Shown piece by piece: positions 3,078 to 9,569 of a DNA stretch of 33,567 nt. Each line of letters starts with the position of its first letter. Positions within the stretch are counted from its first letter, which is position 1. The notes below the pieces were generated by a model, which was given only the letters and a program-made list of their open reading frames with translations, was not told the DNA's origin and made no database searches. The DNA comes from an uncultured Clostridia bacterium (lineage in GTDB: Bacteria; Bacillota; Clostridia; Oscillospirales; QAMX01), in NCBI GenBank assembly GCA_944380935.1, contig CALWJF010000053.1:1-33567 (forward strand), given 5' to 3'. The translations under genes and the position numbers were made by a program.

Positions 3078-4115
3078 ATGAGGATTATCTTGGATGCCAT
3101 GGGCGGCGATCTCGGTTGTGAACCCGTGATTGTCGGTGCGGTGGAAGCACGTCGCGCAGCCGGTCATGATTATATCCTGGTTGGCGATGTGGAGCGGCTT
3201 CGGGCGGCTTTTGTGCGAAATAAGCTTTCGGAAGACGGATTTACACTTGTGCATGCGCCCGATATAATTACGATGGAAGACGATCCGACACGTGTTGTGC
3301 GGGAAAAACGCCAGTCTTCCATGGCTGTTGGTTTGATGGCGTTAAAACGTGGCGAAGGGGATGTTTTAATTTCTTCCTGCAATACAGGTGCATTGTTGAC
3401 AGGCGCAACGCTGCTGGTTGGACGTGTGCCCGGCGTACGGCGTGCGACTCTGGGCGTCCAGCTTCCGACAAAAAAAGAACATGGCGTGATTATTATTGAT
3501 ACCGGCGCAAACGCCGAATGTACGCCGGAATATTTGGAACAATTTGCATTAATCGGGTCGGCATATGCAGAAACTTTCGGTAGAGTTCGTAATCCGCGTA
3601 TCGGACTTTTAAGTAATGGGACAGAAGCACATAAGGGCAATACACTGGTAAAACAGACGCATGCGCTGCTTGAAGTTATGGGTCAAAATGGATGGATTGA
3701 TTTTGCCGGGAATATAGAGGCGCGGGAAGTTCTGTCCGGTGATGTGGATGTTGTCGTCTGTGATGGGTTTGCAGGAAATGTTTTGCTCAAATCAATTGAA
3801 GGTACGGCGTCTTTTATGCTGAGTCTACTGAAAAAAGTATTTTTTGCTAATACCATGACAAAGTTTGCCGCATTGCTTGTCAAGTCTCAGATTGAGAACT
3901 TGAAAAAGGTAATGGATTACCGGGAAGTCGGTGCGACACCGATTCTGGGTATCAGCCGTCCGGTGCTGAAAGCGCACGGTGCGTCGGATGCTGTAGCTTG
4001 GGCAGGTGCGATTCGAAGCGCTGCGAACTATGCCGGTTGCGGAACAGAAGCTCGGATTGCCGAAAAAATGGAAATATTGAAGGGATTAAAAGAAAATGGA
4101 AATGGAAATTCTTAA
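3078..4115 (+). CDS. plsX: Phosphate acyltransferase PlsX
   Basis: PlsX converts acyl-ACP and phosphate into acyl-phosphate, the acyl donor for PlsY in the first step of phosphatidic acid synthesis; it acts at the inner face of the membrane. The 345-residue length is normal. The protein begins MRIILDAMGGDLGCEPVIVGA, the family's glycine-rich N-terminus, and contains LISSCNTGALL, DTGANAEC, LLSNGTEAHKG, DVVVCDGFAGNVLLK and the C-terminal GISRPVLKAHGASDA, all characteristic of PlsX. GGAGG lies six bases before the ATG. It is the first gene of the long operon, and its end overlaps the ACP-like gene by 20 bases, so the two products are probably made together. Confidence 0.97.
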   Translation: MRIILDAMGGDLGCEPVIVGAVEARRAAGHDYILVGDVERLRAAFVRNKLSEDGFTLVHAPDIITMEDDPTRVVREKRQSSMAVGLMALKRGEGDVLISSCNTGALLTGATLLVGRVPGVRRATLGVQLPTKKEHGVIIIDTGANAECTPEYLEQFALIGSAYAETFGRVRNPRIGLLSNGTEAHKGNTLVKQTHALLEVMGQNGWIDFAGNIEAREVLSGDVDVVVCDGFAGNVLLKSIEGTASFMLSLLKKVFFANTMTKFAALLVKSQIENLKKVMDYREVGATPILGISRPVLKAHGASDAVAWAGAIRSAANYAGCGTEARIAEKMEILKGLKENGNGNS

Positions 4116-4323
4116 GCAGTTGATAGCGGACGAATTTGACGAGATAGACGTTGATGAGCAGACAGGATTTTATGATGATCTTGGTGCGGACTGGATGGAT
4201 ATGCTTGAAATGATGTTTGCGTGCGAAGAGGAATTTGAAATTGAAATCGGTGAAACGAGAATGAAGGAAATACAAACTGTAGGAGAACTTGTGGAGCTGA
4301 TTCGGCAGCTTTCTAAGGCATGA
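4096..4323 (+). CDS. Acyl-carrier-protein homologue lacking the phosphopantetheine serine
   Basis: The 75-residue acidic protein aligns end to end with bacterial acyl carrier proteins. FYDDLGADWMDMLEMMF corresponds to the segment F..DLGADSLD..E of E. coli AcpP, followed by EEEFEIEI and TVGELVELI. The serine that receives 4'-phosphopantetheine is replaced by Trp33 (codon TGG at 4192–4194), so the protein as written cannot become a normal holo-ACP. TCG to TGG is a single base change, so a recent mutation or a sequencing error is possible. However, neighbouring positions also differ from the usual pattern (Met34, Met37, Met40, Met41, Cys44). It lies in the classic acpP slot between plsX and rnc. 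The start is the ATG at 4096, with AGGG 11 bases before it; an ATG two codons later is possible. Either this is a non-carrier paralogue and a functional acpP lies elsewhere, or the gene is damaged. Confidence 0.85.
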   Translation: MEMEILKQLIADEFDEIDVDEQTGFYDDLGADWMDMLEMMFACEEEFEIEIGETRMKEIQTVGELVELIRQLSKA

Positions 4324-4337
4324 GAGCGGAGAATACT

Positions 4338-5024
4338 ATGGAAAAATTAGAAGCAAAGATCCACTATACGTTTCGGGATAAAGCGCTTTTACGCAATGCT
4401 TTGACGCATAGTTCCTATGCAAATGAAAGCCGGACCAAAGGTGTTACCTCTAACGAAAGATTGGAGTTTTTAGGAGACAGCGTTTTGGGATTAATAACCT
4501 CTGACTATATTTTCCGTCTGTATCGAGATATTCCAGAGGGGGAACTGACTAAGCTTCGGGCAGCTCTTGTATGTGAGCAGGCATTGCATGAACAGGCGCT
4601 GGCCATTGGCTTAAATGCGTTTATTCTTCTTGGCCGAGGAGAGGAAACCGGCGGAGGCCGGCAACGTGTGAGCATTCTTGCCGATGCCACGGAAGCGTTG
4701 ATCGGGGCCATTTATTTGGACGGCGGGATGGAAGAAGCACGTCGATTTGTTCTGTCTTTTGTGAAACCAAATGTAAAGAAACATGCGCACGACACGAATT
4801 TCCACGATTATAAGACCATGCTTCAGGAGATTGTTCAGAAAAATCGGGAGGAAACGCTGTCCTATCGGATGGCGGGGCAGGAAGGCCCGGATCATAACAA
4901 GACGTTCCGTATGGAGGTTCTGCTCAATTCCAATGTTGTTGCAACCGGTGTTGGGCACAGTAAGAAAGAAGCCGAACAGGCGGCGGCCGAAGCGGCGCTG
5001 CGCCTGATGGGGATTGATGTTTAA
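4338..5024 (+). CDS. rnc: Ribonuclease III
   Basis: RNase III cuts double-stranded RNA, for example in rRNA precursors. With the start at 4338 the protein has 228 residues, a normal size. The N-terminal endonuclease domain carries the signature NERLEFLGDSVLG, with the acidic metal ligands, and a second acidic cluster DATEALIGAIYLDGG. The last ~70 residues (DYKTMLQEI to AAAEAALRLMG) form a double-stranded-RNA-binding domain. The frame is open back to an ATG at 4320 that overlaps the preceding stop, but GGAG lies six bases before the ATG at 4338, and MEKLEAKIHYTF matches the usual family start. The stop overlaps the next start as TAATG. Confidence 0.97.
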   Translation: MEKLEAKIHYTFRDKALLRNALTHSSYANESRTKGVTSNERLEFLGDSVLGLITSDYIFRLYRDIPEGELTKLRAALVCEQALHEQALAIGLNAFILLGRGEETGGGRQRVSILADATEALIGAIYLDGGMEEARRFVLSFVKPNVKKHAHDTNFHDYKTMLQEIVQKNREETLSYRMAGQEGPDHNKTFRMEVLLNSNVVATGVGHSKKEAEQAAAEAALRLMGIDV

Positions 5025-5995
5025 TGGCGCGCATTATACCAGTCTTTATCCCGCATGCAGGTTGTCCACATAATTGTGTGTTTTGTAATCAGCGGCGCAT
5101 AGCTGCACCCGTATCTCCGGAGCCGGAGGAAGTACGGGAGCAGGTCTGCACGGCTTTGGATACAGCAGGCGCCGGTGCGGAAGTTGCTTTTTACGGCGGG
5201 AGTTTTACCGCATTGCCTTTGGCGCAACAGAAGGCATATTTGCAGGCCGTGTCCGGCCTGCCGGTTACAATTCGTCTGTCTACGCGCCCGGATGCGATTA
5301 ATTCGGAGGTCTTGACGCTTTTATCTCAGTTCCCGGTTCGAAGGATTGAACTGGGTGCACAGTCGATGTCCGACGCGGTGCTTGCGATGAGTGGACGCGG
5401 CCATACGGCAGAGGATACCCGCCGCGCGAGCAAACAGATTCATGAAGCGGGTTTTTCTTTGATTCTTCAGGTGATGTGCGGCCTCCCCGGCGATACGGAC
5501 ACCTGGAAATTTTCCGCGAGGGAAGTTGCGGCGCTGAATCCGGACGGGGTGCGGATTTATCCGGTTGTTGTGATTCGGGACACCCCGCTTTATGATCTCT
5601 GGAAAGCCGGGGCGTATACGCCGTTAACGCCGCAACAGGGTGCTGATGCGGCGGCAGATATGCTGGAGATCTTTTTACAGCGCAATATTCCAGTAATCCG
5701 TATCGGTCTGAATCCGACGCAGGAGCTTTCTTCGGGAGGCGCTGCTGCAGGGGCATATCATCCTGCATTGGGGGAAATGGCGCGTGCGCAAGTCTATCTG
5801 CGCCGTATGATTGCTTCTGCGGGCCCTGTACGTATGGGGAAATTGATCTTTTATGTCAAAGCGAACCGTATTTCCCGGGCGCTAGGGATTCGAAAAGGAA
5901 ATCTGCAAGCATTGCGGGAAATGGGATATACCGACGTAAGCGTTGTTGGGCGTACGGATTTGAATGAATATGAAGTGGTAAGTTTTTGGAGTTGA
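5024..5995 (+). CDS. Radical SAM protein, Elp3-like subgroup
   Basis: This 323-residue protein has the radical SAM cysteine motif near its N-terminus (Cys14, Cys18, Cys21 in GCPHNCVFCNQ), which binds a [4Fe-4S] cluster and S-adenosylmethionine. It then shows the glycine-rich strand VAFYGGSFTALP and the sequence RRIELGAQSMSDAVL–GRGHT, as in Elp3/YhcC-type enzymes. LQVMCGLPGDT follows. No acetyltransferase domain is present, unlike full Elp3. Proteins of this type are common between rnc and smc in Clostridia; I do not know a proven substrate, though a role in tRNA or rRNA modification fits the neighbours. The ATG overlaps the rnc stop by one base. Confidence 0.85.
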   Translation: MARIIPVFIPHAGCPHNCVFCNQRRIAAPVSPEPEEVREQVCTALDTAGAGAEVAFYGGSFTALPLAQQKAYLQAVSGLPVTIRLSTRPDAINSEVLTLLSQFPVRRIELGAQSMSDAVLAMSGRGHTAEDTRRASKQIHEAGFSLILQVMCGLPGDTDTWKFSAREVAALNPDGVRIYPVVVIRDTPLYDLWKAGAYTPLTPQQGADAAADMLEIFLQRNIPVIRIGLNPTQELSSGGAAAGAYHPALGEMARAQVYLRRMIASAGPVRMGKLIFYVKANRISRALGIRKGNLQALREMGYTDVSVVGRTDLNEYEVVSFWS

Positions 5996-5999
5996 TGAA

Positions 6000-8900
6000 G
6001 TGCTCTTAAAGAGTCTGGATATACAGGGGTTTAAATCTTTTCCGGATCGAACGCATATCGCCTTTAATCCGGGCGTTACGGTTATTGTTGGCCCAAACGG
6101 CAGCGGAAAGAGCAATATTTCTGACGCAATTCGTTGGGTATTGGGCGAACAATCCACAAAAGCGTTGCGCGGTGGGAAAATGGAAGATGTAATTTTTTCC
6201 GGTGCAGCGGACCGGCGGGCAATGGCGGCAGCTGAGGTGAGCCTGACGATTGACAATACATCCGGTTTTTTGAAAAGTGAGTATAATGAGGTTACAGTAA
6301 CACGCAAATATTATCGTTCCGGGGAAAGCGAATTTTTTGTGAATCGAAAGTCCGTGCGGCTGCGGGATATTCATGAACTTTTTATGGATACTGGCCTGGG
6401 ACGAGATGGCTATTCGATGATCAGCCAGGGGAAAATTGACGAAATCCTCAGTGTAAAAAGCGAACAACGCAGGGAAATTTTTGATGAGGCAACTGGAATT
6501 TCCAAGTACCGTTATCGACGGGAGGAAGCGCAGCGTCGGCTTGCCGATGCGGATGCCAATTTGATGCGAATCCAGGAAATGATCGGCGATATGTCGGTCA
6601 GACTTGAACCGATGCGGGTTGAAGCGCAACGCGAGCAGCAATACAATGACTTGCAAGCGCAATTGAAAACGCTGGATGTGAGTTTGACGGTGCAGGCTTT
6701 GGCCGGGATTGGCGACAGGCTTGCAAAAGCGAAGGCTACTGTAGAAGCGTTTGGTAGAGATTTGGACAAAAGCCGTGCGGAATCTGCGCGGCTGGATCAA
6801 ATGGCGGAAGGATTGATCCGGCAGACCGCGGAGAATCAACGGCTGCTGGAAACGCTGCGGGATGCGCTGCGAACTTTGGAACGGGAAGCAGCGCAAAAAA
6901 GTGAAGAAATTGCAGTTTGTCGTGCTCAGACGGAACACCTTACTGCGGATATTAAACGTATGGAACAGGAAAATGCAGAGAGTTCGGCGGGAGATGCAGA
7001 TGTAGATGCTCAGCTTGCCGCACACAAAACGGCTTTGTCTGACGCACAGCATCAGGCAGAATTGGAAGCAGAGCATATTTCTGTTTTATTGAAAAACACC
7101 CGGCAAATGCAGACGCAGCACAATGATGTTCGTGCACGGTATCTTGCGCAGATGGAGTCGGAATCTGCCCAAAAATCGCAGATTTTGGAAACATCTGGGA
7201 AGCTGGAAACGTCTAATTCACTGAAAACGGAGCTTGTACAGCAGCTTGACGCATTATCAAAAGACGCACAGGATCGAGAAGCGGTGCTTGCACAGGAACG
7301 GGAAACGCAACAGAAACTGGATACGGCGTTTGATGCTGCACAGGAGCATGTGCGGGATCTGGAAAATATCCGGGCAGGGTTTCAAATGAAAGTGGATGCG
7401 CGCCGTCAGCGTTTGGACGAATTGTCCCGGACGGCTGCACAGGAGAAGCTGGAGACAGCTGCGTTGGAGAACCGGCTGACAATGCTTCGGGAACTGGAAA
7501 AGGATTACGAAGGATTTAACCGTGCCGTTCGGATTGTGATGCGGGAAAGCGCATCGGGCGGCCTGCGCGGTATCCATGGACCGGTGTCCGCGCTGATGAA
7601 ATTGGAGGAAGCCTATATACCGGCAGCGGAAACTGCGCTGGGAGGCGCGATGCAATATATTGTTGTGGATGCAGAGACGGACGCACGTGCAGCAATTGGA
7701 TTGCTGAAAAACCGGGATGGCGGACGTGCGACGTTTTTACCATTGTCGACTATACGGCCCAATTTGCTGTCGGAACGCGATTTGGAAATGCAATGCGGAT
7801 TTATCGGAGTTTTGGCAGAGCTTGTGCAGTGCCGGGAATGTTACCGGCCGATTTTTGAGAATCTCCTCGGTCGTACGGTGCTGGTGGATCACTTGGATAA
7901 TGCCATTGTATTGGCAAGAAACTTCCGGCATCGGTTCCGTGTGGTTACGCTGGATGGGCAGGTGATAAATGCTGGAGGTTCGATGACCGGCGGAAGTCTG
8001 AACCGTAGTTCCGGGATTTTGAGCAGAGCCAATGAAATCAAAAAACTATCTGCGCTTCTTCCTGAAAAGCAGCAGAAATTATCTGCAATGCAAACGCAGA
8101 TAGAACAGATGCAGCGGGAAGTGGAGGGACTGGAATACAGGTTCTCACAAACTCGGCAGGAATTTCAGGAAAACCAGGAAGAAATGCTTCGCCTGTCTGC
8201 GCAGTGCACCGCACATAGGACAATTTTGGAGAATCTCTTATCCGGGGAAGAAGATCGTAGTGCGCGTGTAGAGGCTTTGCGTCTGCGTATCAAGGGGTTG
8301 GAAACCGAGCAGGAGACGCTTTCCAAAGCGCTGGAACAGGGAAATGCTGAACTTGCCGTTTGTACCCGGACACGGGAAAAGATGGAACAGGAAATGACGG
8401 TAATCGATCAGCGCGTTTCCGAAGCGGAAGCGGAGCTTCTGCAGGCCCGGATGCATTTGTCTACGCTGGAAGCGCAGGTGCATGCACAAAATGCTACAGT
8501 GGCAGCTTTGCAGCAGTCCCGGCAGCAGGCGTCCATGCGTACGTCTCGGCTTGTACAGCAAATTGAAGATGCACGCCGGAAACATCATGACTGCATGCTT
8601 CAAATTCAGCAGCAGGAATCTCAACGTGAGCAAATCCAAATGCAATGCGAAGAGAAAAGCGAGGCAATTCGAAGAGAAGTCGAAACACAGCATGCCTATG
8701 AGGTTAAGCGTATTGAAATTGAACGGCTTGCCCAGGAGGAAAACCGTCGTTGTCTGGATCTGGAACGTCAGTCAATTCGTGCACAGGCAGAGTGCGAGGC
8801 AATTGAAAATGAAGAAGCTGTGCTGGATACGCGACTTTGGGACAGTTATGAATTGACCCGTTCGCAGGCTAAAACAATCGCACAACCCGTAGAAAATCGA

Positions 8901-9569
8901 GCGGAAGCCCAACGTGAATTAGACAGATTAAAACGGGAAGTACGTGCTTTGGGTTCCATTTATCCCGGAGCAATCCAAGAATATAAGAACCTGCTTCAGC
9001 GGCATACATTTATGGATGGCCAGAAAAAAGATGCAGAAGTATCCAGAAACGAGATTCTGGAAATTATTCAGGATATTAATTGCCGGATGCGTGAAATTTT
9101 CACACAGCAGTTTGCAGTGATTTCCCGCAATTTCACAGAAATTTTCAAACGGATTTTTGGGGGAGGGACGGCAAAAATTGCATTATCCGATCCGGATGAC
9201 GTACTGCAAAGCGGCATCGATATTATGGTCCAGCCACCGGGGAAACAGTTGAAAGTACTGACCCTTTTATCTGGTGGAGAGCGTGCATTGGCGGCGATTG
9301 CGTTGTATTTTGCAATTATGACCGTTCGGCCCGCGCCGTTTTGTGTGCTTGACGAAATAGAATCGGCATTGGATGAGGCAAATGTCCGTTTATTTGGCCG
9401 ATATCTGCAGGAAATGTCAGATAAGGTACAGTTTATTGTAATATCGCACCGGCGCGGAACCATGGAAGCTGCGGATATGCTTTATGGGGTAGCAATGCCA
9501 AGACAGGGGATATCGCGTATATTGGCACTGAATGTTGCGGAAGCAGAAAAAGAATATATAAAGGACTAA
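6000..9569 (+). CDS. smc: Chromosome partition protein SMC
   Basis: SMC is the core of bacterial condensin and works with ScpA and ScpB (not in this window) to organise and segregate the chromosome. The 1189-residue length is standard. The N-terminal head has Walker A [22 protein letters not shown]. Long coiled coils occupy about residues 165–500 and 675–1020. A hinge lies between them ([10 protein letters not shown] to [11 protein letters not shown]). The C-terminal head carries the ABC signature [14 protein letters not shown] and Walker B [15 protein letters not shown]. The start is a GTG at 6000, eight bases after GGAG; no earlier start fits because the radical SAM gene stops at 5995. ftsY follows after four bases. 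Confidence 0.98.
   Translation: [1189 protein letters not shown]

Follow-up and report, generated by a model that had tools for sequence, protein, structure and literature searches.

An acyl carrier protein homologue with tryptophan at the phosphopantetheine serine position in a Clostridia plsX–rnc operon, and serine-less counterparts in the same slot of a distant family

The window, that is, the whole 33,567-nucleotide stretch of DNA analysed here, carries between plsX and rnc an open reading frame that, judged from its sequence, is confirmed as a real acyl carrier protein (ACP) homologue in which the phosphopantetheine serine has been replaced by tryptophan. The stronger result lies beyond the window: in another, only distantly related family of the order, labelled f10, the ACP in this operon slot is Ser-less family-wide, and this Ser-less form is selected.

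Results

The gene and its operon

The features of the operon are collected in Table 1. The first-pass annotation had recognised an ACP-like gene between plsX and rnc, and its coordinates, the gene order and the PP-binding match all agree with that description. The 75-residue product, MEMEILKQLIADEFDEIDVDEQTGFYDDLGADWMDMLEMMFACEEEFEIEIGETRMKEIQTVGELVELIRQLSKA, was matched by the Pfam PP-binding model (PF00550) at 34.7 bits against a cut-off of 20.8, with the whole domain covered (residues 5–69 of 75). The acpP equivalog TIGR00517 scored 53.8 bits (E = 1.3e-14), which is below its equivalog cut-off of 70.45, and the other NCBIfam ACP models that match the ORF likewise do so under their equivalog cut-offs.

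Table 1. Features of the plsX operon within the window
Feature	Position	Strand	Remarks
plsX (acyl-ACP:phosphate acyltransferase)	3078–4115	+	PF02504, 322.8 bits
Ser-less ACP homologue	4096–4323	+	75 aa, net charge −18; Pfam and NCBIfam matches
TGG codon (Trp33)	4192–4194	+	Phosphopantetheine Ser position, DWMD for DSLD
rnc (RNase III)	4320–5024	+	PF14622, 142.2 bits
Radical-SAM-type ORF	5024–5995	+	Named from N-terminal Cys motif CPHNCVFC; same place in relatives
smc (chromosome-condensation ATPase)	6000–9569	+	ORF with Walker A motif GPNGSGKSN; homologue also after rnc in relatives

When the protein was aligned to solved ACPs, ADWMD was found against ADSLD and Trp33 fell on Ser36 of E. coli ACP, so that the change of DSLD to DWMD and its TGG codon, as first read from the letters alone, agree with both the sequence and the alignment. 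Serine was present at this site in 115 of the 136 distinct ACPs aligned, the other 21 being the window protein and 20 proteins from f10, which argues against both a chance ORF and an alignment slip. The only serine of the window protein is Ser73, near the C terminus, and helix II contains no substitute serine or threonine attachment site; normal phosphopantetheinylation of helix II is therefore impossible, and the first-pass claim that a prosthetic group cannot be attached fits best. The acidic recognition helix II is kept, with D32, D35, E38 and E44–E46 corresponding to D35, D38, E41 and E47–E49 of the E. coli protein. A single-sequence AlphaFold model (pLDDT 56), which is too poor to support conclusions, places low-confidence helices at residues 3–15, 31–42, 53–58 and 62–74, so that Trp33 lies where helix II starts.

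The 3′ end of plsX and the start of the ACP gene share 20 bases, and the ACP stop codon overlaps the rnc start as ATGA, an overlap that makes translational coupling of these two genes likely. The order plsX–acp–rnc–radical SAM is common to relatives. The plsX–acp–rnc–smc cluster is ancestral in Firmicutes, where its canonical form is plsX–(fabD–fabG)–acpP–rnc–smc.

Other carriers in the same genome

The source assembly is a 1.8-Mb MAG of 113 contigs with a completeness of 87% and a contamination of 1.65%; the window is its contig C53. An AcpS-type PPTase (PF01648) is encoded in this genome, as are two Ser-bearing ACPs, located on contigs C65 and C101. The C65 protein carries DSL and is 83–84% identical to the copies of the sister genus, and so is clearly of this lineage. 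The first-pass annotation had counted the lack of any other acpP in the genome among the possible grounds against its own reading, and the second DSL-bearing gene on C65 removes that objection.

The C101 ACP sits in a fab operon and is 90–92% identical to ACPs of f10; the neighbouring ThiC shares 87% identity with f10 but no more than 62–63% with the window's own family. From this likeness, C101 was either acquired as an island by transfer or misplaced in binning, and the tetranucleotide composition of the contig does not discriminate native from foreign. Across positions 4600–24563 of C101, the fab operon and thiamine genes are much closer to f10 than to the window's family. With the origin of C101 in doubt, the C65 ACP alone can be taken with confidence as a carrier native to the organism.

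Close relatives

The genus of the window is represented by one genome, this MAG. The sister genus, g6, encodes the orthologue in identical gene order in three species (genomes G005, G012 and G017), with DSLDMVELALACEEEF or a close variant and the serine kept, at 46–50% identity to the window protein. The remaining plsX-linked ACPs read from the window's family all have serine, as do the best-scoring relatives in the class by profile, and when 394 genomes of the order were scanned for a W pattern, the window was the only Trp case among the ACPs read. As far as the data go, the tryptophan appears to be private to the window genome among the genomes compared; conservation of Trp in related loci, which the first-pass annotation had thought worth looking for, was not found, the three sister-genus orthologues all having serine. 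The ACP evolves fast in the window's clade even where serine is present, with identities of 52–69% against 88–91% for rnc. A wider scan of genome contigs gave one unrelated Trp case, a DWLD-bearing ACP-like ORF that lies alone and away from plsX in an uncultured alphaproteobacterial MAG (L066, 5921–6199, minus strand).

A serine-less ACP in family f10

The family f10 spans seven genera in the sample, and its first Ser-less case was found in genome G029, with the motif GDVMD. To about 1.2 kb, the region downstream of plsX was surveyed in 80 further genomes of the order, of which 41 had an ACP after plsX and 39 did not; in the ACP-less loci rnc was mostly immediately downstream. With no ACP at this position in about half of the sampled order, many lineages can dispense with the slot.

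All 14 f10 genomes within the 80-genome sample lacked the serine. Together with five fetched separately and G029, this brings the tally to 20 of 20 f10 genomes in which the ACP encoded between plsX and rnc is Ser-less (loci L168–L181, L034, L264, L268, L273, L310 and L311). The residue at the serine site is most often Glu (16 proteins), with Leu in two and Val and Phe in one each. The window protein and all 20 f10 proteins retain D(−1), D(+2), E(+5) and E(+11) of helix II, except that E replaces D(−1) once. Further ACPs bearing DSL are present in most f10 genomes. Some f10 helices II are altered further, as in L177 (G180; EIRFAIEEEL) and L169 (G136; EEEDWQEMFM, in which a Trp lies three residues past the site). 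Profile libraries annotate these Ser-less proteins as "acyl carrier protein" regardless. A search for the Glu variant across 391 genomes from elsewhere in the class found no ACP in the matched loci that were fetched, and an exact-phrase literature search for Ser-less bacterial ACPs returned nothing relevant, which is weak evidence.

Nei–Gojobori estimates of dN/dS ranged from 0.04 to 0.16 in nine pairs of f10 Ser-less ACPs and from 0.01 to 0.07, i.e. below the ACP, for rnc in the same pairs, with dS above 1 in most pairs, so that these values are rough. From these comparisons, with dN/dS far below 1, the f10 Ser-less ACPs are judged to be under purifying selection. An RNase III tree placed the window as sister to g6 (100/97) and recovered f10 as monophyletic (97/93), far from the window. 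Common descent of the Ser-less state in the window and f10 is not what the tree gives, as the window is sister to the Ser-bearing g6; with f10 distant, the serine was lost at least twice.

Discussion

On balance, the window ACP is probably a real paralogue that has lost its carrier role and now works by protein docking, most likely on PlsX. Beneath this reading are the loss of serine, the intact ORF and its overlaps, the other ACPs, AcpS, and the selected loss in the same slot of f10; against it are the single MAG of the genus, the serine in the sister genus, the fast evolution of the ACP and the 39 of 80 slots with no ACP. Three points here are inferences: a function for the window copy, docking as that function, and PlsX as the partner. 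Action by docking alone seems most likely by analogy with the Plasmodium mACP, and PlsX is favoured as partner on two grounds: its gene adjoins and overlaps that of the ACP, and PlsX handles an auxiliary ACP differently in Enterococcus faecalis. The non-carrier regulator or scaffold suggested in the first-pass annotation is thus the proposal that fits best.

Under the docking reading, the protein would descend from the ACP of the Firmicutes plsX–acp–rnc–smc cluster, acyl carriage having passed to other Ser-bearing ACPs in the cell. The window copy would have retained the acidic face by which helix II is recognised and dropped the phosphopantetheine serine. It would most likely fill the ACP-docking site of PlsX, with which it is probably co-translated, and the occupied site may tune acyl transfer between acyl-ACP and acyl-phosphate, Trp33 (Glu in most f10 members) standing where the missing arm would be.

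The change itself could be a miscalled base or an artefact of assembly at position 4193 of a fragmented MAG, the true codon being TCG. TGG is one base away from TCG, the variant is known from one genome that is 87% complete in 113 contigs, and the sister genus has serine, all of which would fit an error. The surroundings of the codon speak against it, however: Met directly after the site is absent from all 115 Ser-bearing ACPs and present in 2 of the 20 Ser-less ones, Phe at +8 is likewise absent from all 115 and present in one of the 20, and the same kind of loss is family-wide in f10, in the same slot. Altered +1 and +8 positions alongside preserved docking residues are the pattern to be expected of a helix II freed from the arm yet still partner-bound. 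The odd methionines, taken in the first-pass annotation as signs of a longer history, add modestly to this through the Met that follows Trp33, and an error is considered very unlikely. Decay is a weightier alternative, under which the plsX-linked ACP, once redundant, shed its serine and is now functionless and disappearing. This would suit an order in which 39 of the 80 loci surveyed have no ACP there, most with rnc directly downstream, a clade in which the copy evolves fast, and a radical change to Trp that is not shared. Against decay, the ORF, its start overlap and the ATGA junction are intact, the acidic face of helix II is retained, and the Ser-less state of f10 spans seven genera at the low dN/dS given above; we therefore regard decay as doubtful, although it is the likeliest of the alternatives.

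The docking partner might also be an ACP-binding protein other than PlsX, for instance the SMC protein of the cluster, as with MukB, or a cysteine desulfurase complex of the kind bound in Plasmodium, with the ACP acting as a structural partner. The order plsX–acp–rnc–radical SAM–smc in the window, which is similar in relatives, is in keeping with this, but the cluster is ancestral in Firmicutes and adjacency to smc therefore says little. For SMC proteins of Firmicutes, an ACP partner is not known to us. That the arm is not required with MukB (PMC8602292) is in favour of such a role; a partner of this kind is nonetheless held to be improbable.

It is possible, though less than probable, that the order has repeatedly made the plsX-operon ACP into a docking-only pseudo-ACP that controls PlsX, at the acyl-ACP/acyl-phosphate branch, or another partner from the operon. 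If this is true, the non-carrier ACP of Plasmodium would have a counterpart in bacteria, in which Glu or an aromatic residue substitutes for the phosphopantetheine. ACPs are usually defined by the serine that bears the arm, and a family in which a Ser-less ACP is maintained by purifying selection would separate docking from the carrier role in a bacterium; a system of the f10 type could show how an ACP with no arm benefits PlsX or another partner. The f10 family merits its own study.

Comparison with known systems

The canonical AcpP of Firmicutes has the same fold and gene position as the window protein, and the sister-genus orthologue has DSLD in identical gene order; the canonical protein has the attachment serine, whereas the window protein has Trp there. 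ACPs that serve as protein partners resemble the window protein in its proposed role. The apo and holo forms of E. coli AcpP work equally with MukB (PMC8602292), although this AcpP, unlike the window protein, is an ordinary carrier with serine, and Acp3 of Pseudomonas aeruginosa binds KatA, the importance of the prosthetic group for binding being left open in that study (PMC6158461). AcpB of E. faecalis is an auxiliary ACP that is treated by PlsX differently from AcpA (PMC6509188). Like the window protein, it is a second ACP encoded outside the fab operon, but it keeps its serine, is 4-Ppant-modified and delivers acyl chains to the FabT repressor complex, whereas the window protein has no serine for 4-Ppant.

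The mACP of Plasmodium falciparum, in which the serine has become Phe, is essential, and the Phe contributes to binding of Isd11 (PMC8547962). It differs from the window protein in being eukaryotic and mitochondrial and in binding Isd11–Nfs1, and FASII is gone from its compartment, whereas the window cell retains AcpS and Ser-bearing ACPs. Both have the ACP fold with a bulky aromatic residue in place of serine, so that no 4-Ppant is possible, and both share the cell with a normal ACP. The Plasmodium mACP is the closest precedent for the window protein.
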